Shown here: piece by piece, positions 48,348-62,206 of the stretch
How the letters are laid out: every line of letters starts with the position of its first letter
Position numbering within the stretch: position 1 is the stretch's first letter
DNA from: Acidisarcina sp.
GTDB taxonomy: Bacteria > Acidobacteriota > Terriglobia > Terriglobales > Acidobacteriaceae
Direction: 5' to 3'
DNA: 64,000 bases
Assembly (NCBI GenBank): GCA_035539175.1
Contig: DATLIY010000003.1
Location: 62,001 to 126,000 of the forward strand
Made by a program: the position numbers and the translations under genes
The notes under the pieces: generated by a model
Told to the model about the DNA's origin: nothing
Database searches by the model: none
What the model saw: the letters and a program-made list of their open reading frames with translations, nothing else

Positions 48348-48754
48348 TGCTCTCATTCTAAGGCACCGGATTCCCGGACCAAAAAGGGAGAGCCGACGCG
48401 CAAGTTCAGAAGAGAATCATGACCAGATCGGGAATTCACCAGAATGGGGTCCCGAATCAGGCATCAGCGTTAACGTAATGTTTTTACACGACTTGTCTTG
48501 CTTTTGGTTAGACGTATATCCCATTTCGGGAAATCCACAGCTCATTTGCGGCCCAGGAAATGTGACGGTCCTATGGAGGCTAAATGCCGTGCAATCTGTC
48601 GTTTCGGCAGGAAGTCCCAGTTTGGTACACGGCATGCACTAGAGAAGGACACCGAGTTCACTATGGGAAGGTTTTGCGGGTTACCAGGGGACCGGTTCGC
48701 TGAAAAGGGATTCGCACCGAGCAGATTCGCAGAAAGGGAGAGTTGAGGAGAGTT
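48348..48754. other. Divergent region between rph and the histidine kinase gene
   Basis: No credible protein gene. It holds the candidate sigma-54 promoter at 48623-48638. An AT-rich stretch lies around 48468-48520. Confidence 0.5.
48623..48638 (+). promoter_or_regulatory. Candidate sigma-54 (-24/-12) promoter
   Basis: TGGTACACGGCATGCA fits TGGYACR-N4-WTGCA with the invariant GG and GC separated by exactly 10 bp. It is 117 bp upstream of the histidine kinase / NtrC-like operon. Two positions depart from the best consensus. Confidence 0.45.
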
Positions 48755-49672
48755 ATGGAGTCACTGGCGCAAGCATCGTTCCCGATCCCAGGCAAGACCG
48801 CTCCTGCGGCTGGTCCAAGGGTGGATTCGTCTGCGCAGGAACGCGCGAGTCTTTCGCATGATATGCGGAATATGCTGATGGCTCTGAATCTCTATTGCGA
48901 CCTGCTATCCGAGGATGCGGTACTGCCTGTTCGCCACCGTCACTATGCGGACGAATTGCGGCTGGTGGTTCAGGCAGGCAGCGATCTTCTCGATCGTCTC
49001 CAGCATCTGGCAACTCCGCCGCGCAATGCTCCAGTCGCAGCCCAGGAAGCGGGGAGCACCGCGGTAGGGAACCTGGCCCGGGAGTTGGAGAGCTGCCGGG
49101 GTCTGCTGCAGGCTTTGGCGGGTTCTTCCATTCGCGTGAACCTGGAGGTTGGCAGGTATACCGGGCCCGTGCCCCTCAGCCGCGAAGACCTTATGCGCAT
49201 CCTGGTCAATCTTGTTCGCAACGCATCCGAGGCCATGAGACTGGCCACGGCACAAGCCACGCCACAGGAGATGACGCGCGGCGGAGGAGAGATCCGGATC
49301 GCGGTCCGCATGGCGGAGGCGGTGGGGCCAGAAGTGACGCAGCGAGTTGTTCTCTCGGTTGAGGATGATGGTCCGGGAATGGACGCTTCTGTCCGGGAAC
49401 ACATCTTCGAGCGCGGTTTTACGACCAAAGGATGCCGCGGCACCAGCGTATCCAGTACCAGCGCATCGGGCCGTGGGCCTCGTGGCCTGGGGCTCGCGAT
49501 CGTGCGGGAGCTGGTGGAGGCCGCAGGCGGCATGGTGCGTGCCTCGAATCGTGATGGTCACGGAGCGCGCTTTGAAATTACGTTTCCAGCGGTTAGGGGA
49601 AAGCTGAGTACCACCAAAGTAGTAGCACGAAAGGATACCGCCTTGCGGGGAGGAACCGAAGTACAATGCTAA
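48755..49672 (+). CDS. NtrB-like soluble histidine kinase
   Basis: 305 residues without membrane or PAS domain. H-box LSHDMRNML (His35); N-box NLVRNASEAM; G1 DDGPGM; F-box FERGFTTK; G2 GRGPRGLGLAIV. A 40-residue Gly/Ser loop precedes G2. It should phosphorylate the response regulator encoded next, which it overlaps by 7 nt (ATGCTAA). With no sensor domain, input must come from a partner protein. GAGGAG precedes ATG 48755. The candidate -24/-12 promoter is upstream. Confidence 0.9.
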   Translation: MESLAQASFPIPGKTAPAAGPRVDSSAQERASLSHDMRNMLMALNLYCDLLSEDAVLPVRHRHYADELRLVVQAGSDLLDRLQHLATPPRNAPVAAQEAGSTAVGNLARELESCRGLLQALAGSSIRVNLEVGRYTGPVPLSREDLMRILVNLVRNASEAMRLATAQATPQEMTRGGGEIRIAVRMAEAVGPEVTQRVVLSVEDDGPGMDASVREHIFERGFTTKGCRGTSVSSTSASGRGPRGLGLAIVRELVEAAGGMVRASNRDGHGARFEITFPAVRGKLSTTKVVARKDTALRGGTEVQC

Positions 49673-51135
49673 CAATTGCTCCAACTAGTTTTTCCATGCA
49701 GACTTTTCCTGAATTGGTTGCAGGGAGGATGCACCTTCTCGTCGTGGATGAAGACGCTGCGGTGCGTTCCGCCTGTTGCGAAATTGCGACTCGGCTGGGT
49801 TATGCTGCGACGGGCGCTGCCGGCGTAGCTGCCGCCCGCGAACTGCTGCGTGGCAATGCCATCGACATTCTTCTGCTCGATCTGAAGGCTCCGGTCGCGG
49901 CTGGTCTTGAGCTTCTGGAAGAGGTGAAGACTCTGCATCCGCAGACCTCGGTGGTGGTGATGACCGCGTTCGCCACGGTCAACTCCGCAGTCGAGGCGAT
50001 GCGCACCGGCGCGAGCGATTACCTGACCAAGCCATTTGCGCTGGATGAAATCTCCGGCGTGTTGGAACGCGCCTCGGAGCGGAAGAAGGTGGATGTATCC
50101 AGCCGCCGGTTGCGGGAGAGGCTGCGGAACCAGCAGGGGCTTGGCAACATCATCGGGCGCAGTCCGGAGATGGATAAGCTGTATCGAATTCTTTCCAAGG
50201 TCGCGCAGAGCTCGCACCCTGTCCTGATCCTGGGCGAGAGCGGCACGGGCAAGGAGCTGGTGGCGCGGGCTATCCATGCCAATGGCGCAAACGCCAGCAA
50301 GCCTTTCATCCCGGTAGATTGCGGATCGCTGGTGCCGACACTGATCGAGAGCGAGCTCTTCGGCTATGTCAAGGGAGCCTTCACGGGAGCGAACCGCTCG
50401 AAGGACGGCCTGCTTGCATCGGCAGAGGGTGGCACCGTATTCCTCGACGAGATTGGCGAGTTGCCACTTGACCTGCAGGCCAAGCTGCTGCGCGCTCTGC
50501 AGGAAAAGGAAATCCGGCCGGTTGGATCGACGACCCGCATCCCCATCAATGTCCGCGTGCTGGCAGCGACGAACCGCGACCTGGCGGGAATGGTGGAGCA
50601 GGGGCGCTTCCGCAAGGATCTGTATTACCGCCTGAATGTGGTGAACCTGAGGATCCCTCCTCTGCGCGATCGCAAGCAGGACATCCCCATGCTGGCAGCC
50701 CACTTTCTGGATCGTCTGTCCCGGGAGAACGCGACCACTTACACGTTGAGCGATGACGCCCTGCGTACGATGATCGCCTACGACTGGCCGGGGAATGTCC
50801 GGGAGTTGGAGAACTCCATTGAACGTGCCTGCGCACTCTCATCCGGTCCGACGCTGCACATGGGCGATCTGCCGACGCAGTTGCAGGAGTTCCGCCTGCA
50901 GGTGCACCGCACCAATGATGCGGGGAGCGGGGCAGCGCAGGAGTCCGCCGCCGCGATGCCTGAAGTCACTCCCCTCGCGGAGTTGGAGAAGCAGGCAATC
51001 CTTTCCACCATTCGGCAACTGAAGGGCGACAAACTGATGGCAGCCAAGCTTCTCGGCATCGGAAAGACGACGCTCTACCGCAAGCTGAAGGAGTATGGCA
51101 TTACCGAAGCAATGGCAACGGACCCCGCTGATTGA
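49666..51135 (+). CDS. NtrC-family sigma-54 response regulator
   Basis: 489 residues. Intact receiver: acidic pair in LLVVDEDAAV, phospho-acceptor in DILLLDLKAP (about residue 70), Thr in VVMTAF, Lys in YLTKPFALDE. AAA+ domain: GESGTGKE (about 190), GAFTGA (about 240), VFLDEIGEL, RKDLYYRLNVV. C-terminal Fis-type helix-turn-helix (KLMAAKLLGIGKTTLYRKLKEYG). It starts inside the kinase gene's end with GGGGAGGA upstream, so translation is coupled. Target genes unknown. Confidence 0.94.
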   Translation: MLTIAPTSFSMQTFPELVAGRMHLLVVDEDAAVRSACCEIATRLGYAATGAAGVAAARELLRGNAIDILLLDLKAPVAAGLELLEEVKTLHPQTSVVVMTAFATVNSAVEAMRTGASDYLTKPFALDEISGVLERASERKKVDVSSRRLRERLRNQQGLGNIIGRSPEMDKLYRILSKVAQSSHPVLILGESGTGKELVARAIHANGANASKPFIPVDCGSLVPTLIESELFGYVKGAFTGANRSKDGLLASAEGGTVFLDEIGELPLDLQAKLLRALQEKEIRPVGSTTRIPINVRVLAATNRDLAGMVEQGRFRKDLYYRLNVVNLRIPPLRDRKQDIPMLAAHFLDRLSRENATTYTLSDDALRTMIAYDWPGNVRELENSIERACALSSGPTLHMGDLPTQLQEFRLQVHRTNDAGSGAAQESAAAMPEVTPLAELEKQAILSTIRQLKGDKLMAAKLLGIGKTTLYRKLKEYGITEAMATDPAD

Positions 51136-51179
51136 GAAGGATCCGCCGGTACTCTGACGGACGCTCGCAGCAAAACAAC

Positions 51180-51229
51180 AGCGGCCCAAAAACAAATTCA
51201 CACTAGCGGCCCCAAAACAAAATACAGCT
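51180..51229. repeat. 25-bp imperfect tandem duplication
   Basis: AGCGGCCCAAAAACAAATTC then ACACT (51180-51204) is followed directly by AGCGGCCCCAAAACAAAATA then CAGCT (51205-51229). It lies between the NtrC-like gene and the receiver-like gene. Confidence 0.8.
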
Positions 51230-51253
51230 AGAAAGTACAGACAGGAGTTCTTT

Positions 51254-51754
51254 GTGAATCTGCCCATATTGATGATTACCGCCCTTGCAGGATCCGAAAA
51301 TTGCGCCATGGCCATGGGCCGTCAACTCGGCCTTTCTGTGGAAGTTGCGGACACGCGCAAGGCTGCGCTGACCGCGCTTCGCCGCAGAGAATACTCCGTG
51401 GTGGTGGTGGACGACTCGCTGGCTGAGTCCGACCCCGCGGGTATGGAACTGATCTGGAAGCATGCAGCACTCGCCGTGCCTCTGCAGGTGAACTTTGCCA
51501 TCTCGGGTGCCTCCCGGCTGGCGCGAGAGGTCCGTCTGGCCCTTAGCCGACGCGAACAGGAGCAGTCTCTGGCGATGCGCGCCGCGGCTTCGACGATTGA
51601 GAACGAACTGAAGTCGACGGTTACCGGCCTGCTGCTGCAATCCCAGTTGGCGCTGGCGGAGCCTTCGGCATCTCCGGTATTGACGGAAAAATTAAAGCTG
51701 ATGGTGGAGCTGGCCGGCAACCTTCGTCAGCAGTTGGCGCGCCCGCAGGCTTAG
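51254..51754 (+). CDS. Receiver-like protein with DHp-like helical tail
   Basis: 166 residues. The first 110 look like a CheY-type fold: ILMITAL, VEVADTRKAALTAL, SVVVVDDSLAESDPAG (possible acceptor Asp), LQVNFAISGASRLAREVRLAL. The N-terminal acidic pair is missing. The last 55 residues form two helices (STIENELKSTVTGLLLQSQL and ...LMVELAGNLRQQL) reminiscent of a histidine-kinase dimerisation hairpin without the His. ACAGGAG precedes the GTG start. It follows the NtrBC-like pair and may be a regulator or sink for it; by context only. Confidence 0.6.
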   Translation: MNLPILMITALAGSENCAMAMGRQLGLSVEVADTRKAALTALRRREYSVVVVDDSLAESDPAGMELIWKHAALAVPLQVNFAISGASRLAREVRLALSRREQEQSLAMRAAASTIENELKSTVTGLLLQSQLALAEPSASPVLTEKLKLMVELAGNLRQQLARPQA

Positions 51755-51912: not shown

Positions 51913-53154
51913 CTAATGCACGGTGCGCATCTTCCTTTGCATATAGTCCATCAGCAGATACTCGCCGAGCGTATCGGGCGTGGTGAAGTAGGCTTTGCCG
52001 CGGCACATCGACGTAACCTTCTGCACAAACTGCACCAGGCCAAGGTCTGAGGCCAGCATGAAGGTGTTGATCATGATGCTGGAGCGCTTGCAGCGGGCGA
52101 CCTCTTCCAGCGTCTCGCTCACCACCAGCGGATCGAGCCCAAAGGCGTTCTTGTAGATGCGTCCATCCGGCAGCGTGAGGGCCGAGGGCTTCCCATCGGT
52201 AATCATCACGATCTGCTTCATATCCTTGCGTTGCCGTTCGAGGATACGCTGCGCCAATCGCAGGCCCTCGCGCGTGTTGGTGTAGTAGGGGCCGACCTTG
52301 ACGCGGGCAATCTGCGAGACGGGCATCTCCTCCGCCGAGTCATGGAAGAGCACAAGGGAAAGAGAGTCTCCGGGATATTGCGTGCGGATGAGATGCGAGA
52401 GTGCCATAGCCACCCGCTTTGCAGGTGTGAAGCGGTCCTCCCCGTAGAGAATCATCGAGTGGGAGCAATCCAGCAGAACCACTGTGGCGCAGGAGCTCTG
52501 ATACTCCGACTGGTGTACATGCAGATCGCTGTACTCGATGTTCAGCGGCATGCGGAGGCCTTCGCGTGCAATCGCCGAGCTGAGCGTGGCAGTCGTGTCC
52601 AGATTCAGCGTGTCTCCGAATTGATAGAGCTGGGAAGCTCCGCTGGTTTCAATTCCGGTAGCCCAGTGCTGCGTGTCGTGCCGGCCATAACTGGACTTGC
52701 CGAGCGAGCCCAGGAGATCGCGGAGCGTCTTGAAGCCGAGAAAGTCGAGGCTCTTGTCGGTAACCTCAAACCGTACCTGCCCTTCGACCTCGCCGACCTG
52801 CCCTTGCCCCGCTGATGGGCGAGCCGGATTCAGAGGGCTCTCGACCGAGATATAGTTTTCCTGCTCCATCCGGTCGATGAGTTGTTCGATGAGATCGTCG
52901 AGCTGGCCGCTCTCCACCATCTTGTCGAGCTGCTGCTGCAGGGATTGGTCGAGCATTTCTCCGGATTCGAGCGCCTGGCGGAGCGCCTCCCGCAGACTCT
53001 CCAATGTGTGCTCGCCGTCGAGTTCGGCAAAGCGGGAGTAGGGATCGCGGTAGCCGGAATCGAGCAGGTAGTTCGCGAGAGCCTGCAGCAGGTCTTCCAT
53101 GCTCATTTCGGATGCCGGGCTGCCGTTGTACTTGGTGTATCGAATCCGTTTCAT
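51913..53154 (-). CDS. VWA-domain protein partner of a ChlI-like AAA ATPase
   Basis: 413 residues. Residues 1-170 are mostly helical and acidic. The VWA domain starts around residue 215 with the MIDAS motif [31 protein letters not shown] and the ending [12 protein letters not shown] follow. It resembles the VWA half of Mg-chelatase-like AAA/VWA systems, where the ATPase works with a VWA adaptor to insert metals or remodel proteins. The AAA gene lies 86 bp upstream on the same strand. No tetrapyrrole genes nearby. Confidence 0.85.
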
Positions 53155-53240
53155 GGCATAGCTCCTGGAAGAGCAGGTCTGTCAGCGAAGCACGCGCCGG
53201 GCTGCGATTCGAGAATGCTGCCCCGGCATTCTTGAGGCCT

Positions 53241-54752
53241 CTAGTTGAGTCCCCGCCGTACCTGCTTCTGCTGCCACTCCTCGGCGAAGGACTCCGTGTC
53301 TGTGCGCTCCGGCCGCCGCGGCTTCTCCTGCGCGGAGAAGCCGCGTTCCTCGCTGCGGCTCAACTTTCTGTGGGCATACATGCCTTCGAGCAAAAACTCC
53401 GCCGCGGAGACAATCAGCTCCGGCGTGCCCGAGGGCTTCACCGAAACAGCGGAGAGTTTTTCGAGGAGCCCTTGAATCTGGCACAACTCGGCCAGGGTAT
53501 CGGCAGCGGATTGTCCGTCATCGATCTTGACGGTGCCGCCCAGGTTGAACCACTGCTCGATCTGCTGTGTATTGGTGGTGGCGAAATACTTGTCGTAGAA
53601 CCGTGCGATCGCGACGCGGATCAACTCGCGGACCACCGTGTCGGCGCCGCGCAGTTCTCCTTCATATTCCAACTCGACCTTGCCGGTGATGCCCGGGAGT
53701 GCGGCGTACAGATCACCAACCCGCGGAACGACGAGCGTTTCTCCGTGCAGGAGCGCGCGCCGCTCGGCGTTGGAAACGACCAGCTCCATCGTGGAGATGG
53801 GCAGCCGCTGGCTTACGCCGCTGCGGTTATCTACCTTCTTATCCTGGCGTGCGCTGAAGGCGATCTGCTCCACGATCTCGCGGATATATGCGGGGATTTC
53901 GACGCGGCCCGTGCCGCGATCGGTCCACGCCTCCTGGCTGGTAATGGCGATGCCTTCTTCGATCGTCTCCGGATAATGCGTGCGAATCTCCGAGCCGATG
54001 CGATCTTTCAGCGGAGTGACAATCTTGCCGCGTGCGGTGTAGTCCTCCGGGTTTGCGCTGAAGACGAGTGCGAGATCCAGCGCCAGCCGGACAGGGTAGC
54101 CCTTAATCTGCACATCGCCTTCCTGCATGATGTTGAAGAGCGCAACCTGTATTTTTCCGGCAAGGTCGGGGAGTTCGTTGATGGCGAAGATGCCCCGATT
54201 GGCGCGTGGCAGCAATCCATAGTGCATGGTGAGCTCGTTCGACAGGTCCTGGCCGCCGCGTGCCGCCTTGATGGGGTCCAGGTCGCCGACGAGGTCTGCA
54301 ACCGTGACGTCGGGCGTCGCGAGCTTTTCCACGTAGCGGTCGTCTCGCGAGAGATATGCAATGGAGACGTCGTCCCCGCGCTCCTCGATTAGCTCGCGGC
54401 AACGACGGCACAAGGGATGGTATGGATTGTCGCGGATTTCGCAGCCTGCCACGAAGGGCAGCTTTTCGTCGAGGATCGCAGTCAGCGCCCGTAGAATCCG
54501 GCTCTTGGCCTGGCCGCGGAGTCCCAGAAGGATGAAGTTCTGCCGCGACAACACTGCGTTGACGATCTGCGGAACCACCGTATCCTCATAGCCGACGATG
54601 CCGGGGAAGAGAGGATCTCTGGCCTTGAGGCGCGCGATCAGGTTTTCGCGCATCTCTTCTTTCACGCTGCGGTTTTTCAACCGTGCTTCGGAGAACAGAT
54701 CGCTCTTGCGAAGTTCACCCAGAGTCAGGGGAAGGTGGCTCGGTGAAGACAT
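53241..54752 (-). CDS. ChlI-like AAA+ ATPase with altered Walker motifs
   Basis: 503 residues of the Mg-chelatase subunit I-like AAA family. The Walker A region is LLGLRGQAKSRIL (Ala where the canonical GxxxxGK has Gly) and Walker B is GIFAINELPDL (Asn for the usual Asp). A cysteine cluster HPLCRRCREL lies between them, a likely zinc knuckle. ALFNIMQEGDVQIKGYPVRL, LVFSANPEDYTARG and PLKDRIGSEIRTHYP follow. Both alterations look like lineage features of this ChlI-like branch, but nucleotide hydrolysis is not assured. Paired with the VWA gene downstream. Confidence 0.85.
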   Translation of the reverse strand: MSSPSHLPLTLGELRKSDLFSEARLKNRSVKEEMRENLIARLKARDPLFPGIVGYEDTVVPQIVNAVLSRQNFILLGLRGQAKSRILRALTAILDEKLPFVAGCEIRDNPYHPLCRRCRELIEERGDDVSIAYLSRDDRYVEKLATPDVTVADLVGDLDPIKAARGGQDLSNELTMHYGLLPRANRGIFAINELPDLAGKIQVALFNIMQEGDVQIKGYPVRLALDLALVFSANPEDYTARGKIVTPLKDRIGSEIRTHYPETIEEGIAITSQEAWTDRGTGRVEIPAYIREIVEQIAFSARQDKKVDNRSGVSQRLPISTMELVVSNAERRALLHGETLVVPRVGDLYAALPGITGKVELEYEGELRGADTVVRELIRVAIARFYDKYFATTNTQQIEQWFNLGGTVKIDDGQSAADTLAELCQIQGLLEKLSAVSVKPSGTPELIVSAAEFLLEGMYAHRKLSRSEERGFSAQEKPRRPERTDTESFAEEWQQKQVRRGLN

Positions 54753-54848: not shown

Positions 54849-55466
54849 TTACATCACGTGGCCGTTCCGGCTGGAAGCCAGAGATGCCTGCGCTCCGCGG
54901 CGGAGCTTGGGGAGAAATGTCTTGTAGAACTCCAGAAGCCGCAGCGTGCGGTCCGCGTCCGACCGCAAACAAAGGAGTTCCTGCTTAAAGTCCAGGTCTG
55001 CGGGCAGGCTCCACGCCAGTTGAAATGAGATGGAATCTGCAGGATTGAGAGCCGCGTATATGGCCTCCACTCCCGCCAGTTCCAGCGCCTCGTAGTGGAG
55101 GCCGAGGCACTCCTCGCGGTTTAGCCTGCTGGCAGTCTCGCCAAAGTCAGGCAGCAGATCAACTTCCGCCTGCAGAAAAGTGCGGGAGTTATCCAGCGTC
55201 TCGATCTCAAAGCGGTCGATTCCTTCGCATAGAATGTCCATCCGGCCATCGGAATAGCGTTCGAGGATACGAAGAATGTGCGCCGTACATCCAATAACCG
55301 CAAGGCCACCCCGCTGTGCCCGCACCACTCCGAAGATCCCGTTTCCGTCGAGGCATTCTGCGACCATCTCCCGGTAGCGGTTTTCGAAAATATGAAGCGG
55401 GAGAGGAGCCCCTGGAAAGAGCACCACATCCAGCGGGAACAAAGGGATTCTCATGGCTCCGTCCAT
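54849..55466 (-). CDS. LON substrate-binding domain protein
   Basis: 205 residues: a stand-alone N-terminal LON (PUA-like) domain without protease. It begins RIPLFPLDVVLFPGAPLPLHIFENRYREMV, with FGVVRAQRGGLAVIGCTAHI and a C-terminal helical part (FQLAWSLPADLDFKQELLCL). Such proteins probably bind degradation substrates. Starts at 55466 and 55454 are both possible. It follows the TPR gene on the same strand. Confidence 0.85.
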   Translation of the reverse strand: MDGAMRIPLFPLDVVLFPGAPLPLHIFENRYREMVAECLDGNGIFGVVRAQRGGLAVIGCTAHILRILERYSDGRMDILCEGIDRFEIETLDNSRTFLQAEVDLLPDFGETASRLNREECLGLHYEALELAGVEAIYAALNPADSISFQLAWSLPADLDFKQELLCLRSDADRTLRLLEFYKTFLPKLRRGAQASLASSRNGHVM

Positions 55467-55563: not shown

Positions 55564-55875
55564 TTAATTCTCCAGATCGTCGAGCATATCCTGCATTTCG
55601 CCCTCGGCATGCGTGTTGCGGGTTCGAACCGCGCTTGCGATACCAGCCTTCAGGCGCTCCTTAGCTTCGTCGATGCGTCCGGCCTTGGCCAGCGTCTGGG
55701 CACACATGAAGTATCCCGGCGTGTAGTCGGGGTGATCCGTTGCGAGGCGGTCAAACTCTGCCAATGCAGCCGTCACGTCGCCGCTGTTGGCGTACTCCAT
55801 CGCCAGCCCATAGCGGGCAAAGCTGTCCATGGGGTTCATGGTGAGAATCTGCTGCAACATGTCGATTTTGGTCAT
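55564..55875 (-). CDS. Small TPR-repeat protein
   Basis: 103 residues. About two tetratricopeptide units: DSFARYGLAMEYANSGDVTAALAEFDRLA and YTPGYFMCAQTLAKAGRIDEAKERL (split here), then an acidic end. It is a small scaffold fold without a signal peptide; partner unknown. AGGAG precedes the ATG at 55875. It lies upstream of the LON-domain gene by about 100 bp. Confidence 0.8.
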   Translation of the reverse strand: MTKIDMLQQILTMNPMDSFARYGLAMEYANSGDVTAALAEFDRLATDHPDYTPGYFMCAQTLAKAGRIDEAKERLKAGIASAVRTRNTHAEGEMQDMLDDLEN

Positions 55876-57815: not shown

Positions 57816-58886
57816 ATGTCTGCTGAGGTTCGAATCAGTCCCAGGGAACGACTTGTACTCACGGCAATCGTCGAGACGTACATCGCGACCGGAGAGCCGG
57901 TGGCCTCGCAAACCGTTGCCCGCCACTTTGGCAGCAAAGATGGTATGAGTTCCGCGACGATCCGCAATGTCATGGCGAGTCTGGGCGAAGCGGGTCTGCT
58001 GGAGCAGCCGCACACATCCGCGGGGCGCATCCCTACGGCACAGGCATTCCGCTTTTATGTAGAGCAACTCAGTGGTTTATCGCGGCTTGCGCCCGGCAGC
58101 CTGACGCCGGAGCAGCGCGAGCAGATCGCAGACAGCTTTGCGGGGGTTCACGGCAGCCAGCAGTTTCTTGAGCGTACCTCCCACGTGCTGGCCTTGCTGT
58201 CGAGCGGTGTGGGTGTAGCGCTCGCATCCGGCACAGAGGCTCATTCGCTGGAGCATATTCACTTCACCCGGCTGAGCGCGAGACGCGTGCTTGCGGTCCT
58301 GGTGACGATGGCGGGAGCGGTGCTCGACCGGGTTCTGGTGTTGGATCGCGACCTGGCCCATGCCGAGCTTGAGGTTGCCGCGCGCTTTCTGAATGAGAAT
58401 TTTCACGGCTGGTCCATCGAGCGCATTCGCGTGGATCTGACGCATCGCGTGGAAGCCGAGCGGAATGAGTATGACCGGCTCATGTCCTCGGTGGAAGAGC
58501 TATGCCGCAAAGGAGCCTTTGCCGCGGAGTTTGCGGACCAGAGTATCTTTGTGGAGGGTGTCGGCAACCTGGTCGCGAGCGAGATGGATCGCGAACGGTT
58601 GCGTCAGTTGCTGGGGGCCCTGGAGACGAAGCAGCGTCTGATCGAGTTGCTGAATGCTTATGTTGACTCACGCCAGCAGGCAGTGCGGGTGGTCGTGGGG
58701 CTTGAAGATTCCATCCCGGAGATGAGTAACATCGTGCTTTTTGGCGCTCCGGTGCATCTGGGCGCGGAGAGCTTCGGTACAGTCGCCGTAATCGGTCCTA
58801 CGCGCATCCAGTATCAAGAGACGATCAATGCGGTTTCGTATATCGCGCAGCTTTCTGAACGCATCCTGCAGGCGCCCCAGCAGTGA
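57816..58886 (+). CDS. hrcA: Heat-inducible transcription repressor HrcA
   Basis: 356 residues. N-terminal winged helix (RERLVLTAIVETYIATGEPVASQTVA, MSSATIRNVMASLGEAGLLEQPHTSAGRIPT spread over about 8-75), then the GAF-like core with FTRLSARRVLAVLVT and the C-terminal GAESFGTVAVIGPTRIQYQETI. It normally represses groE and dnaK operons by binding CIRCE. It leads the hrcA-grpE-dnaJ operon and overlaps grpE's upstream region. Confidence 0.95.
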   Translation: MSAEVRISPRERLVLTAIVETYIATGEPVASQTVARHFGSKDGMSSATIRNVMASLGEAGLLEQPHTSAGRIPTAQAFRFYVEQLSGLSRLAPGSLTPEQREQIADSFAGVHGSQQFLERTSHVLALLSSGVGVALASGTEAHSLEHIHFTRLSARRVLAVLVTMAGAVLDRVLVLDRDLAHAELEVAARFLNENFHGWSIERIRVDLTHRVEAERNEYDRLMSSVEELCRKGAFAAEFADQSIFVEGVGNLVASEMDRERLRQLLGALETKQRLIELLNAYVDSRQQAVRVVVGLEDSIPEMSNIVLFGAPVHLGAESFGTVAVIGPTRIQYQETINAVSYIAQLSERILQAPQQ

Positions 58887-58969
58887 GGCGGGAACGTCCG
58901 GGGAAAGAGACGCCACCATGGCTGCGTCAGCCCTATGAATCCATGAAAGAAATATTTTCGAAGGTACGT

Positions 58970-59587
58970 ATGTCAACAACACAAAAGCCGTCCGATGGAA
59001 AAATTGAAGCACTGCTGAACACGGATCCCGCCTCAGATCCCGCGGAGGATGTGGTCAGTGGAATGGAGGCCGGCGAAGGGCCGGCAACCGTTACAGAGAT
59101 GCCGCTCTCGGGAGCCGCTGTTCCACAAGAGGAGTATGAGCGGATCAAGGCCGAGCGCGATCAGCTCTTCGACCGGCTTGCACGCCTGCAGGCGGAGTTC
59201 GACAACGCCCGCAAGCGGGAGGCGAAGGAGCGCACGGAATTTCGCGACTACGCTATCGGGAATGCGGTCGCGCAGTTTCTTCCGGTCCTCGATAATTTTC
59301 AGCTGGCTCTCAATGCCAACGGCTCGGCAGAGCAGCTTCGCGGCGGAGTGGAGCTGATCGTCAAGCAGATGGAAGAAGCTCTGAAATCTCTCAACGTTGT
59401 TCCCGTGGAAACAGTAGGGGAACAGTTTGATCCGCATGTCCATGAGGCGCTTGGCACCGTAGAAAGCGAAGATGTGCCGGATCAGCAGATCGTCGATGAA
59501 ATTCGGCGCGGTTACCGCATCCGTGATCGCCTGCTGCGCCCGGCGATGGTTCGTGTAGCCCATAATCCGAAGCAGAAAGAAGCATGA
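58970..59587 (+). CDS. grpE: Nucleotide exchange factor GrpE
   Basis: 205 residues. Acidic N terminus, long coiled-coil helix (QEEYERIKAERDQLFDRLARLQAEFDNARKR over about 60-95), then FLPVLDNFQLAL, VELIVKQMEEAL and the beta wing with GEQFDPHVHEAL and RGYRIRDRLLRPAMVRV. It drives ADP release from DnaK. ATG 58970 has AAGG at 5 nt; GTG 58883, overlapping the hrcA stop, is possible. Its stop overlaps the dnaJ start (ATGA). Confidence 0.94.
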   Translation: MSTTQKPSDGKIEALLNTDPASDPAEDVVSGMEAGEGPATVTEMPLSGAAVPQEEYERIKAERDQLFDRLARLQAEFDNARKREAKERTEFRDYAIGNAVAQFLPVLDNFQLALNANGSAEQLRGGVELIVKQMEEALKSLNVVPVETVGEQFDPHVHEALGTVESEDVPDQQIVDEIRRGYRIRDRLLRPAMVRVAHNPKQKEA

Positions 59588-60717
59588 GCAGAACAGACAA
59601 CGTGACCAAAACCGACTTTTATGAACTGCTGGGCGTGTCCCGCGATGCCACGGATCAAGAGATCAAAACGGCGTATCGCAAACTAGCCATGCAGCATCAT
59701 CCGGATCGGAATCCGGATAATCCAGAATCTGAAGAGAAGTTCAAGGAAGCCAGCGAGGCCTACCAGGTCCTCTCCGACTCAGAAAAACGCGCGGCTTACG
59801 ATCGATATGGGCATGCTGCGTTTAACGGCGGAGGCGGAGGTGGAAATCCCTTTGCCGGCGCACAGGATATCGGCGACATCTTCGGGGACATCTTCGGCGA
59901 GATGTTCAATATGGGGGGCCAGGGACGCAGGCCCTCGCGTGTCCAGCGCGGCCAGGATCTGCGCTATGACATGACGATCGAATTCGTCGAGGCGGCCTTT
60001 GGCAAAGATGCGGAGATTCAGATTCGGCGTCTGGAGGCCTGCGCGGATTGCCATGGCACAGGCACAGCCAGCGGCCGCGGTCCGGTAACCTGCCGCCAGT
60101 GCCAGGGGCGGGGCCAGGTTCGCTATCAGCAAGGATTCTTTTCGATTGCGCGGACTTGCTCGGCCTGCGGCGGTGTCGGCACGGTAATTTCCGATCCCTG
60201 CTCCACCTGCAAGGGGGACACCCGCGTGCATCGAGAGCACATGATCCAAGTCAAGATTCCGGCGGGGGTGGAAGATGGGACGCGGATCCGCTACCAGGCC
60301 GAGGGCGACGCCGGTCGATTTGGCGGGCCCAATGGCGACCTCTACATCTTCCTCACGGTAAAGCCGCACGCCTTTTTCGAACGGGATGGCAACGACCTGC
60401 ACTGCATTCTGCCGATTTCGTTTCCCCAGGCTGCGCTTGGCGCCGAGTTGGATATTCCTACGCTGGAAGGCGAATCGAAGCTGAAGATTCCCGAAGGCAC
60501 GCAGAGCGGCAAGGAGTTCCGCATTCGTTCCAAGGGAATTCCGTACCTGAACGAACATGGCCGCGGCGATCTCATCGTGCAGGTGATGGTGCAGACGCCG
60601 AAGAAGCTGAACAAGGTGCAGCGCGAACTGGTGCGGCAGCTTGCCGATACGCTCAAGGTGGAAAATACGCCAACCTCTCGCGGCCTGTTTGAAAAGATGA
60701 AGGAACTGTTCAGCTAA
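59584..60717 (+). CDS. dnaJ: Chaperone protein DnaJ
   Basis: 377 residues. J domain with HPD at residues 39-41; Gly/Phe-rich linker (NGGGGGGNPFAGAQD); zinc domain with CADCHGTG, CRQCQGRG, CSACGGVG and CSTCKGDT (the last repeat has Asp-Thr in place of the final Gly region); then the C-terminal substrate domain. It stimulates the DnaK ATPase. Start overlaps grpE by 4 nt. dnaK itself is not in the window. Confidence 0.95.
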   Translation: MSRTDNVTKTDFYELLGVSRDATDQEIKTAYRKLAMQHHPDRNPDNPESEEKFKEASEAYQVLSDSEKRAAYDRYGHAAFNGGGGGGNPFAGAQDIGDIFGDIFGEMFNMGGQGRRPSRVQRGQDLRYDMTIEFVEAAFGKDAEIQIRRLEACADCHGTGTASGRGPVTCRQCQGRGQVRYQQGFFSIARTCSACGGVGTVISDPCSTCKGDTRVHREHMIQVKIPAGVEDGTRIRYQAEGDAGRFGGPNGDLYIFLTVKPHAFFERDGNDLHCILPISFPQAALGAELDIPTLEGESKLKIPEGTQSGKEFRIRSKGIPYLNEHGRGDLIVQVMVQTPKKLNKVQRELVRQLADTLKVENTPTSRGLFEKMKELFS

Positions 60718-61803: not shown

Positions 61804-62206
61804 GGTTTCTATTCTCCCTTTTCGATGTGCATCGAATCTGCAACACGAGTGTTGCAGTTACGGAAGGTATATGGTTCTTGAAAAAATGTGTCAAGAAAAA
61901 AATTGCAATTCGCAGCACACTTCCTCAATTGCGAATCGAAAAAAGCAATGAGGTTCGATCCGATTTTTCCGGATGCAGAAATACGACGAGAGAAGTGCAC
62001 CTTGAATATCGTTGCTCCACGGGGTCTTCCTCTGGCGTTGCGTGTTGCGACAGCGCTTGCTATCTTCAGTCGGCTGGTTTGGTGCTTCGCACTTCGCATC
62101 CAAACTGATTGTGCTGCTCTCCGGGTAGAAACGTCTGCCGCCCGCACCAGTCAAAGGGTTGAGAGCTATCGGCTAAGAGCCGTCGGGTTAAGAGAGGGCC
62201 TACACC
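61804..62206. other. 403-bp intergenic region
   Basis: AT-rich left half (61860-61960) as expected for the promoter of the Lys/Ala peptide gene and/or the thiolase gene. A small stem CGGCT-AAG-AGCCG (62170-62182) lies 25 nt before the thiolase start. No credible gene. Confidence 0.5.

Follow-up and report, generated by a model that had tools for sequence, protein, structure and literature searches.

A ChlI-type AAA+ ATPase with a Walker B asparagine and its VWA partner: a candidate remodelling pair of Acidobacteriota, Deinococcota and Gemmatimonadota

The stretch of 64,000 nucleotides from Acidisarcina sp. (Acidobacteriota) analysed here, positions 62,001 to 126,000 of contig DATLIY010000003.1 and hereafter called the window, carries two neighbouring minus-strand genes, 86 bp apart, that encode a ChlI-type AAA+ ATPase and a protein with a VWA domain. 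A first-pass annotation had described the interval 51913-54752 as a ChlI-like AAA/VWA pair. Both minus-strand open reading frames (ORFs) were confirmed, the kinship of the AAA protein to BchI emerged from phmmer as well as from a structural model, and 153 homologues could be aligned. The features of the pair, in window coordinates, are:

53241-54752, minus strand: ChlI-type AAA+ ATPase of 503 residues, supported by ORF, profile and AlphaFold model; a mostly helical stretch (about residues 390-478) follows the AAA core
54501-54524, minus strand: Walker A motif GLRGQAKS, residues 77-84; residue 82 is Ala in 149 of 153 homologues and Gly in four
54162-54188, minus strand: Walker B motif FAINELPDL, residues 189-197; Asn192 stands for Asp and Glu193 is kept; N192, E193 and D196 each occur in 153 of 153 homologues
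54399-54443, minus strand: three-cysteine site C104, C115 and C118, presumably a metal or redox site, from the homologue alignment
51913-53154, minus strand: VWA partner of 413 residues with an N-terminal helical part, a linker and the VWA domain
52456-52470, minus strand: metal ion-dependent adhesion site (MIDAS) motif DCSHS, residues 229-233; T294 and D320 complete the site, and D229, S231, S233, T294 and D320 are invariant in 26 sequences

The AAA protein matches BchI (PDB 1g8p) at E 4.1e-8 in phmmer, and no Pfam or NCBIfam model reaches its curated cut-off in scans of this sequence. Its best NCBIfam scores, 52.1 bits for TIGR02442 (cut-off 779.45) and 43.3 bits for TIGR02030 (cut-off 466.95), are at most roughly one tenth of what is required. 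The closest structure to its AlphaFold model (predicted local distance difference test score, pLDDT, 82) is again BchI 1g8p, with Z 16.1 and a root-mean-square deviation of 3.2 over 257 residues; BchI/ChlI structures range from Z 16.1 to 13.0, 2r44 reaches 14.2 and RavA 13.2. Since the best structural matches are BchI, ChlI, 2r44 and RavA, the predicted fold is that of an AAA+ protein of the helix-2-insert class (MoxR/ChlI/RavA). The second hallmark of this class, a genetically coupled VWA protein with a MIDAS, is present as well: the partner passes the Pfam model VWA_2, and its MIDAS, considered intact from the outset, is indeed complete. Among the VWA ORFs found beside homologues, 116 of 130 contain the full MIDAS pattern as typed, and among the remaining 14 are ORFs truncated at contig ends as well as the four longer proteins of the plasmid collection. 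Many positions are invariant in residues 129-190, ahead of the VWA domain (26 sequences). The two best matches of the VWA model (pLDDT 69) are chains of the NorQD complex, taken as NorD (E 5.4e-7); a profile of the VWA alignment searched against PDB sequences gave no match at E 0.1.

Motifs were compared across 153 distinct homologues, of which 93 are acidobacterial, 20 stem from Gemmatimonadota, 36 from Deinococcota and four from plasmid-collection records (Thermomicrobium, Nonomuraea, Nocardia and Tsukamurella). Walker A and B, the sensors and the arginine finger are all present in the family, except that Asn replaces the Walker B Asp; the resulting Asn-Glu is found in all 153, as would be expected if the altered residue marks the whole branch. 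K83, E193, R251 and R316 are equally invariant and sensor-1 N234 occurs in 152 of 153, for which reason we predict that the ATPase is probably live. The Walker A Ala, on the other hand, had been listed as unusual and is not: it occurs in E. coli RavA (GPPGIAKS) and in two of the three chelatase ATPases compared, namely the Chloracidobacterium BchI, which exceeds the TIGR02030 cut-off (GHRGTAKS), and a cobaltochelatase-like ORF of Nocardia (GEKGTAKS), Gly being kept in Tateyamaria BchI. A Walker A variant GXXXTAKS is also mentioned, in a passage on MoxR-vWA systems (PMC7159879). Judged from these sequences, the alanine is nothing special in the class, and the Walker B Asn is the sole feature by which the branch can be told apart from BchI, RavA and the cobaltochelatase-like protein. 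The proposal that the altered motifs define the branch thus stands for the Asn and falls for the Walker A Ala and the cysteines, which are not peculiar to it.

The cysteine knuckle first noticed in HPLCRRC (residues 112-118) is real, but it is part of a site wider than CxxC alone, made up of C104 and C115-x2-C118, and it is absent from 86 of the 153 homologues. All three cysteines are present in 67 (66 acidobacterial sequences and Nonomuraea), and partial sets occur in none. On a quick FastTree phylogeny, computed with the Cys columns left out, this state changes eight times, six of them inside Acidobacteriota, compared with at least 41 changes in 100 shuffles that ignore kinship. The three cysteines are therefore gained and lost as one unit, the behaviour expected of a metal or disulphide site. 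Among the three chelatase ATPases compared, only Chloracidobacterium BchI has a comparable cluster; plant CHLI is described as redox-controlled, with four conserved cysteines (PMC3778395). The same Chloracidobacterium genome (G232, locus L079) encodes both this genuine BchI, with its Walker A Ala and Cys cluster, and a Cys-free member of the family, for which no VWA gene turned up within 10 kb.

The first-pass annotation implied a restriction to Acidobacteriota, and this does not hold. AAA orthologues were found in 40 of 119 Acidobacteriota genomes (E < 1e-100; two further listed matches are weak), in 81 of 101 Gemmatimonadota genomes (E <= 1e-50; that of G280 is a fragment) and in 108 of 111 Deinococcota genomes, with fragments only in G142, G157 and G207. 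In the sampled Deinococcota the gene is near-universal and almost always single-copy. The VWA gene was searched genome by genome in the 111 Deinococcota, where 107 possess it (E <= 1e-20), and through the loci in the other phyla. With thresholds of E 1e-3 for the AAA and E 1e-20 for the VWA gene, 106 of the 111 Deinococcota genomes have both, two have neither (G141, G199) and three have a single one (G143, G197, G224); in each of these three, the place of the absent partner falls beyond a contig end.

Linkage of the two genes is equally pronounced. Of 153 loci, 130 have a recognised VWA gene, and in all 130 it shares the strand of the AAA gene; the ORF is missing in 23 loci after a wider search (27 at first, when a long ORF was sought), many of which have short flanks. 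Among the loci with a VWA gene, it immediately follows the AAA gene at 77 of 84 from Acidobacteriota and 24 of 31 from Deinococcota, several of the remainder being overlong ORFs; at 10 of 11 from Gemmatimonadota it is 1.3-4.6 kb away, with mixed genes between. Co-retention extends to unlinked genes: in G126 and G129 strong AAA and VWA matches sit on separate contigs, and G131-G136 have weaker VWA matches (E 7e-41 to 1e-46, 34-39% identity) far from the AAA gene or on a different contig. Of the VWA proteins of these six genomes, four were compared and score 210-230 bits against the family profile; three of the four carry the family motif [12 protein letters not shown], and no AAA relative lies beside those of the genes that were examined. 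Linkage, shared strand and co-retention even when unlinked are strong evidence that the AAA and VWA proteins form a two-part machine whose target is encoded elsewhere. The original idea of a two-protein machine without an established client is thereby supported, and the H subunit of chelatases is missing from most carriers. In one Deinococcota branch (L243, L245, L246 and also L244) the unlinked VWA gene lies a few kb from a DnaA-like gene, so named from its sequence.

Two further genes just upstream of the pair, on the same strand, had been overlooked in the window:

54849-55466, minus strand: stand-alone LON substrate-binding-domain protein (PF02190, E 2.8e-24); alternative ORF start at 55610; 96 bp before the AAA gene
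55564-55875, minus strand: small TPR protein (PF14559), upstream of the LON gene

On the other side, convergent to the VWA gene at 48743-51754, there are a histidine kinase, an NtrC-type regulator and a 166-residue ORF without Pfam match. As first stated, tetrapyrrole, cobalamin and Rubisco genes are lacking nearby: a Pfam scan found none among the 12 window proteins between 48743 and 60717. Neighbours in relatives were called as codon-scored ORFs and clustered for 125 loci, an uneven sample that consists of the best 80 of 589 matches, 40 chosen regions, the four plasmid-collection records and the window. Across phyla, the only constant neighbour in this clustering is the VWA gene. A chelatase gene that consistently accompanies the pair, named at the start as an observation that would refute the proposal, was not encountered: by eye and in about 20 Pfam scans, none of the recurring neighbours was recognised as a chelatase gene. 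Within Acidobacteriota, 32 of 80 loci have a LON-domain gene no more than 3.5 kb away from the AAA gene, always on the same strand (32 of 32); of the 62 loci whose flanks suffice on both sides, 25 have one. It occurs in two arrangements, upstream of the pair at 16 loci and downstream at the other 16. By coordinates, the LON gene adjoins the AAA gene in 8 of 119 acidobacterial genomes (G000, G028, G041, G054, G077, G084, G107 and G116). A TPR gene is located at most 4.5 kb upstream on the same strand in 19 of the 80 loci.

Protease and chaperone genes are scattered around the pair, in different lineages and on the strand opposite to it. HslV-like (Pfam Proteasome) and HslU-like (AAA_2) genes, with names inferred, occur at three Deinococcota loci (L165, L166 and L172), and a PpiC-type isomerase gene at three others, those without a linked VWA gene. 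The acidobacterial loci, the window included, contain HrcA at four, GrpE at five and DnaJ at five. The three HslVU loci are Thermus-like, as far as can be inferred, and there the AAA gene is divergent from the HslV/HslU-like genes and small genes separate it from the VWA gene. In the window itself, hrcA-grpE-dnaJ occupies 57816-60717, about 3-6 kb from the AAA gene, and the same genes lie within 9 kb in three or four other acidobacterial loci.

On balance, we favour the reading that the pair is a ChlI/MoxR-class AAA+ remodelling chaperone with a VWA partner and with clients in trans. The helical N-terminus of the VWA protein, the invariant stretch 129-190 and the complete MIDAS fit a use like that of NorQD, and hence a ChlI-type AAA+/VWA remodeller that works in trans. 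In NorQD, a finger of the VWA protein is reported to enter the pore of the ring, and the linker of the partner is proposed to be twisted as ATP is turned over (PMC13036017). By analogy, the AAA protein would form an ATP-driven ring on which the VWA protein docks, holding the client through its MIDAS, and ATP turnover would pull or twist this client, whose gene would be located outside the AAA-VWA locus. The adjacent Lon-type substrate-binding protein of Acidobacteriota probably helps to present clients, and the three-cysteine site could serve some lineages as a dispensable metal or redox switch. Given this probable help of the LON protein, protein quality control or the remodelling of folded complexes appears the most likely job, an assignment that we make tentatively. 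We slightly favour it over cofactor insertion, on the basis of the LON neighbour, the contact of a presumed mycobacterial orthologue with ClpC1 (see below) and the scattered protease and chaperone neighbours. It is rather unlikely, although conceivable, that the pair represents a further general bacterial remodelling system, built from a ChlI-derived AAA+ ring and a VWA clamp, to which Acidobacteriota would add a detached Lon-type domain, that operates beside the Clp, Lon and Hsl proteases and belongs to the core gene set of Deinococcota.

In the papers found on Rv0958/Rv0959, MSMEG_5512, MoxR/VWA, sigma 54-interacting proteins and Deinococcus/Thermus relatives, no characterised homologue with a known substrate came up; they yielded scattered experimental data on a presumed mycobacterial orthologue. 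The Tsukamurella member is 42% identical to the window AAA protein, and the Tsukamurella and Nocardia members together range from 40 to 42%. These two members share the Walker B Asn-Glu and differ from the window protein in keeping Gly in Walker A (GERGQGK), in lacking the Cys triad and in having a VWA ORF of about 715 residues. Rv0958 and MSMEG_5512 are annotated with a sigma-54 interaction domain, as is the Tsukamurella member. MSMEG_5512 is reported to bind ClpC1 with low micromolar affinity and not to be degraded by ClpC1P1P2 in vitro (PMC10433963). It is also listed among RNA polymerase-associated proteins; the tagged protein recovered no DNA, which according to its authors does not rule out DNA contact (PMC7092591). 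In a porphyrin study the presumed orthologue Rv0958/MSMEG_5512 is called a Mg-chelatase on expression grounds (PMC10774309). In M. marinum, a single insertion 49 bp before mmar_4541, the presumed orthologue, is described as conferring B12 resistance, and its knock-down as lowering dye uptake; the authors interpret the effect as one of envelope permeability and report the same dye effect for four other knock-downs (PMC11237697).

Several observations weigh against the remodelling chaperone and its link to quality control. The membership of Rv0958-Rv0959 and MSMEG_5512 in the family is a presumption based on similar annotation. The link between LON gene and pair is loose even in Acidobacteriota: in the family to which the window belongs, six genomes (G036, G049, G061, G094, G103 and G112) carry the AAA gene without any LON match and another one (G023) has a LON protein without the AAA gene; LON matches occur in many AAA-negative genomes, and in many genomes they lie away from the AAA gene. 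Outside Acidobacteriota, no LON match was present within 3.5 kb at 20 Gemmatimonadota, 21 Deinococcota and four other loci. Each of the HslVU-like, PpiC and DnaJ neighbours occurs in a single lineage, on the opposite strand, and could be due to chance. Hydrolysis might be reduced by the Walker B Asn. In the search with the VWA model, the NorQD chains have only a narrow lead over TFIIH and other VWA domains (E 7e-7 and up), which makes the NorD ranking weak. Earlier ClpC1/P2 knock-down and two-hybrid studies had already found MSMEG_5512, according to the ClpC1 study (PMC10433963), so that it may be a mere Clp substrate. Finally, the literature passages on the family and on the presumed mycobacterial orthologue name no client.

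The strongest competitor, which we consider possible yet doubtful, is a dedicated insertase that delivers a metal or cofactor to one unlinked metalloenzyme in the manner of NorQD, CoxDE or CbbQO. The likeliest recipient would be an enzyme of aerobes that serves respiration or is linked to cobalamin. The NorQD matches of the VWA model point in this direction, and so does COX1 (PF00115), which exceeds its cut-off in 39 of 40 AAA-positive and 54 of 79 AAA-negative Acidobacteriota (Fisher 1.2e-4, uncorrected for kinship; G095, the single carrier below the cut-off, was inferred from its E-value). This distribution suggests that the pair follows aerobes in Acidobacteriota; on the other hand, 54 COX1-positive genomes manage without the AAA gene. 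Cytochrome-bd-like and oxidase-like genes, named by eye, lie near the pair at a few acidobacterial loci. Five acidobacterial loci (L048, L056, L062, L065 and L069) have heme genes (HemY-like, HemN, HemE, HemA and HemC) upstream of the AAA gene, at a distance of about 3-10.5 kb, with HemY-like on the same strand in five of five, but these five represent one lineage, and L106 adds only a lone HemD-like match, with 36% identity and far downstream. A general heme link was dropped as lineage-bound, the cluster being present in 5 of 125 loci. A looser cobalamin link is suggested by CobN, since all eight CobN-positive Acidobacteriota carry the AAA gene (hypergeometric 1e-4, uncorrected for kinship). 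The B12 resistance and lowered dye uptake in M. marinum also speak for an insertase; against this stand the permeability favoured by the authors and the like dye effect of four other knock-downs. Another argument against an insertase is that no neighbour constant across phyla was recognised as a metalloenzyme gene.

That the pair is a divergent Mg- or cobalt-chelatase I/D couple is very unlikely. BchI is the closest solved relative and the three-cysteine site resembles that of Chloracidobacterium BchI, but the genome of the window lacks the H subunit (PF02514), which only 7 of 111 Deinococcota and 8 of 119 Acidobacteriota possess, and this means that the pair is not an obligate chelatase. Records with genuine chelatase-type proteins, moreover, contain separate ATPases: Chloracidobacterium G232 has a true BchI together with the family member, in the Nocardia record W02 cobaltochelatase-like ORFs (471.6 and 248 bits) exist apart from it, and G075 has another ChlI-like ATPase 1.5 kb from CobN. 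Unlike ChlD, the partners contain VWA_2 in 26 of 26 cases and an AAA family (E 0.01 or better) in none of the 26, and the window AAA protein does not reach the I-subunit cut-offs TIGR02030 and TIGR02442. Chelatase identity was rejected on account of the mostly absent H subunit and the separate ATPases.

A conflict or defence chaperone pair of the MoxR-vWA ternary kind is slightly less credible still: the two components are the same as those described for that kind (PMC7159879), but neighbour clustering found no third component constant across phyla, the gene is near-universal and almost always single-copy in Deinococcota, and we rejected a defence system because PADLOC gave no match. In Deinococcus, the last gene of the ddrTUVWX operon is described as VWA CoxE-like (PMC5552922). 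This operon was set aside as probably another pair, compared by description, since it occurs in some Deinococcus only, in contrast to the near-universal pair, and since a loose form of the ddr promoter motif turned up at a single one of 20 Deinococcota loci, some 9 kb away from the AAA gene. Least plausible of all is the annotated role as a sigma-54-dependent transcriptional regulator (WP_012643106, WP_231857332; 'sigma 54-interacting transcriptional regulator' for L117 8992-10392 and L120 8965-10377), a label that may stem from the weak matches to Sigma54_activat (PF00158) in 24 of 26 members: the 503-residue sequence has neither a GAFTGA loop nor, by Pfam, a helix-turn-helix family, so that we rejected it for want of the loop and of a DNA-binding domain; the gene is linked to a VWA protein, and no DNA was reported with tagged MSMEG_5512, the presumed orthologue (PMC7092591).

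A pair that nearly all sampled Deinococcota have kept is labelled in the records found as a sigma-54 regulator or a Mg-chelatase. Its study would put to the test whether AAA-VWA machines serve remodelling in general instead of inserting metals, and what role an invariant Asn plays in Walker B; laboratory strains of Thermus and Deinococcus are tractable, so the client can be sought directly. Compared with known systems, the window AAA protein shares with BchI/ChlI (1g8p, 8osf) the predicted AAA+ fold, the catalytic layout and a VWA-domain partner, and Chloracidobacterium BchI has the Walker A Ala as well as a cluster of cysteines in roughly the same position. It differs in its Walker B Asn, in a further C-terminal part, in an identity of only 19-23% in structural alignments, in a score below the TIGR02030 cut-off and in the lack of an H subunit in most carriers, and its partner, in comparison to ChlD, is without the AAA half. 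NorQ-NorD, like CbbQ-CbbO and CoxD-CoxE, is likewise a pair of AAA+ and VWA proteins, and the best matches of the VWA model are to NorQD by a narrow lead; NorQ matches the window AAA protein more weakly than BchI does and, in contrast to NorQ-NorD, a target gene beside the window-type pair was not recognised. RavA-ViaA of E. coli is also encoded by an AAA-VWA gene pair and has the Walker A Ala (GPPGIAKS); RavA has Asp-Glu in Walker B where the family has Asn-Glu and reaches Z 13.2 as against 16.1 for BchI, and the clients of RavA-ViaA are reported to be encoded at unlinked sites (PMC10585395).

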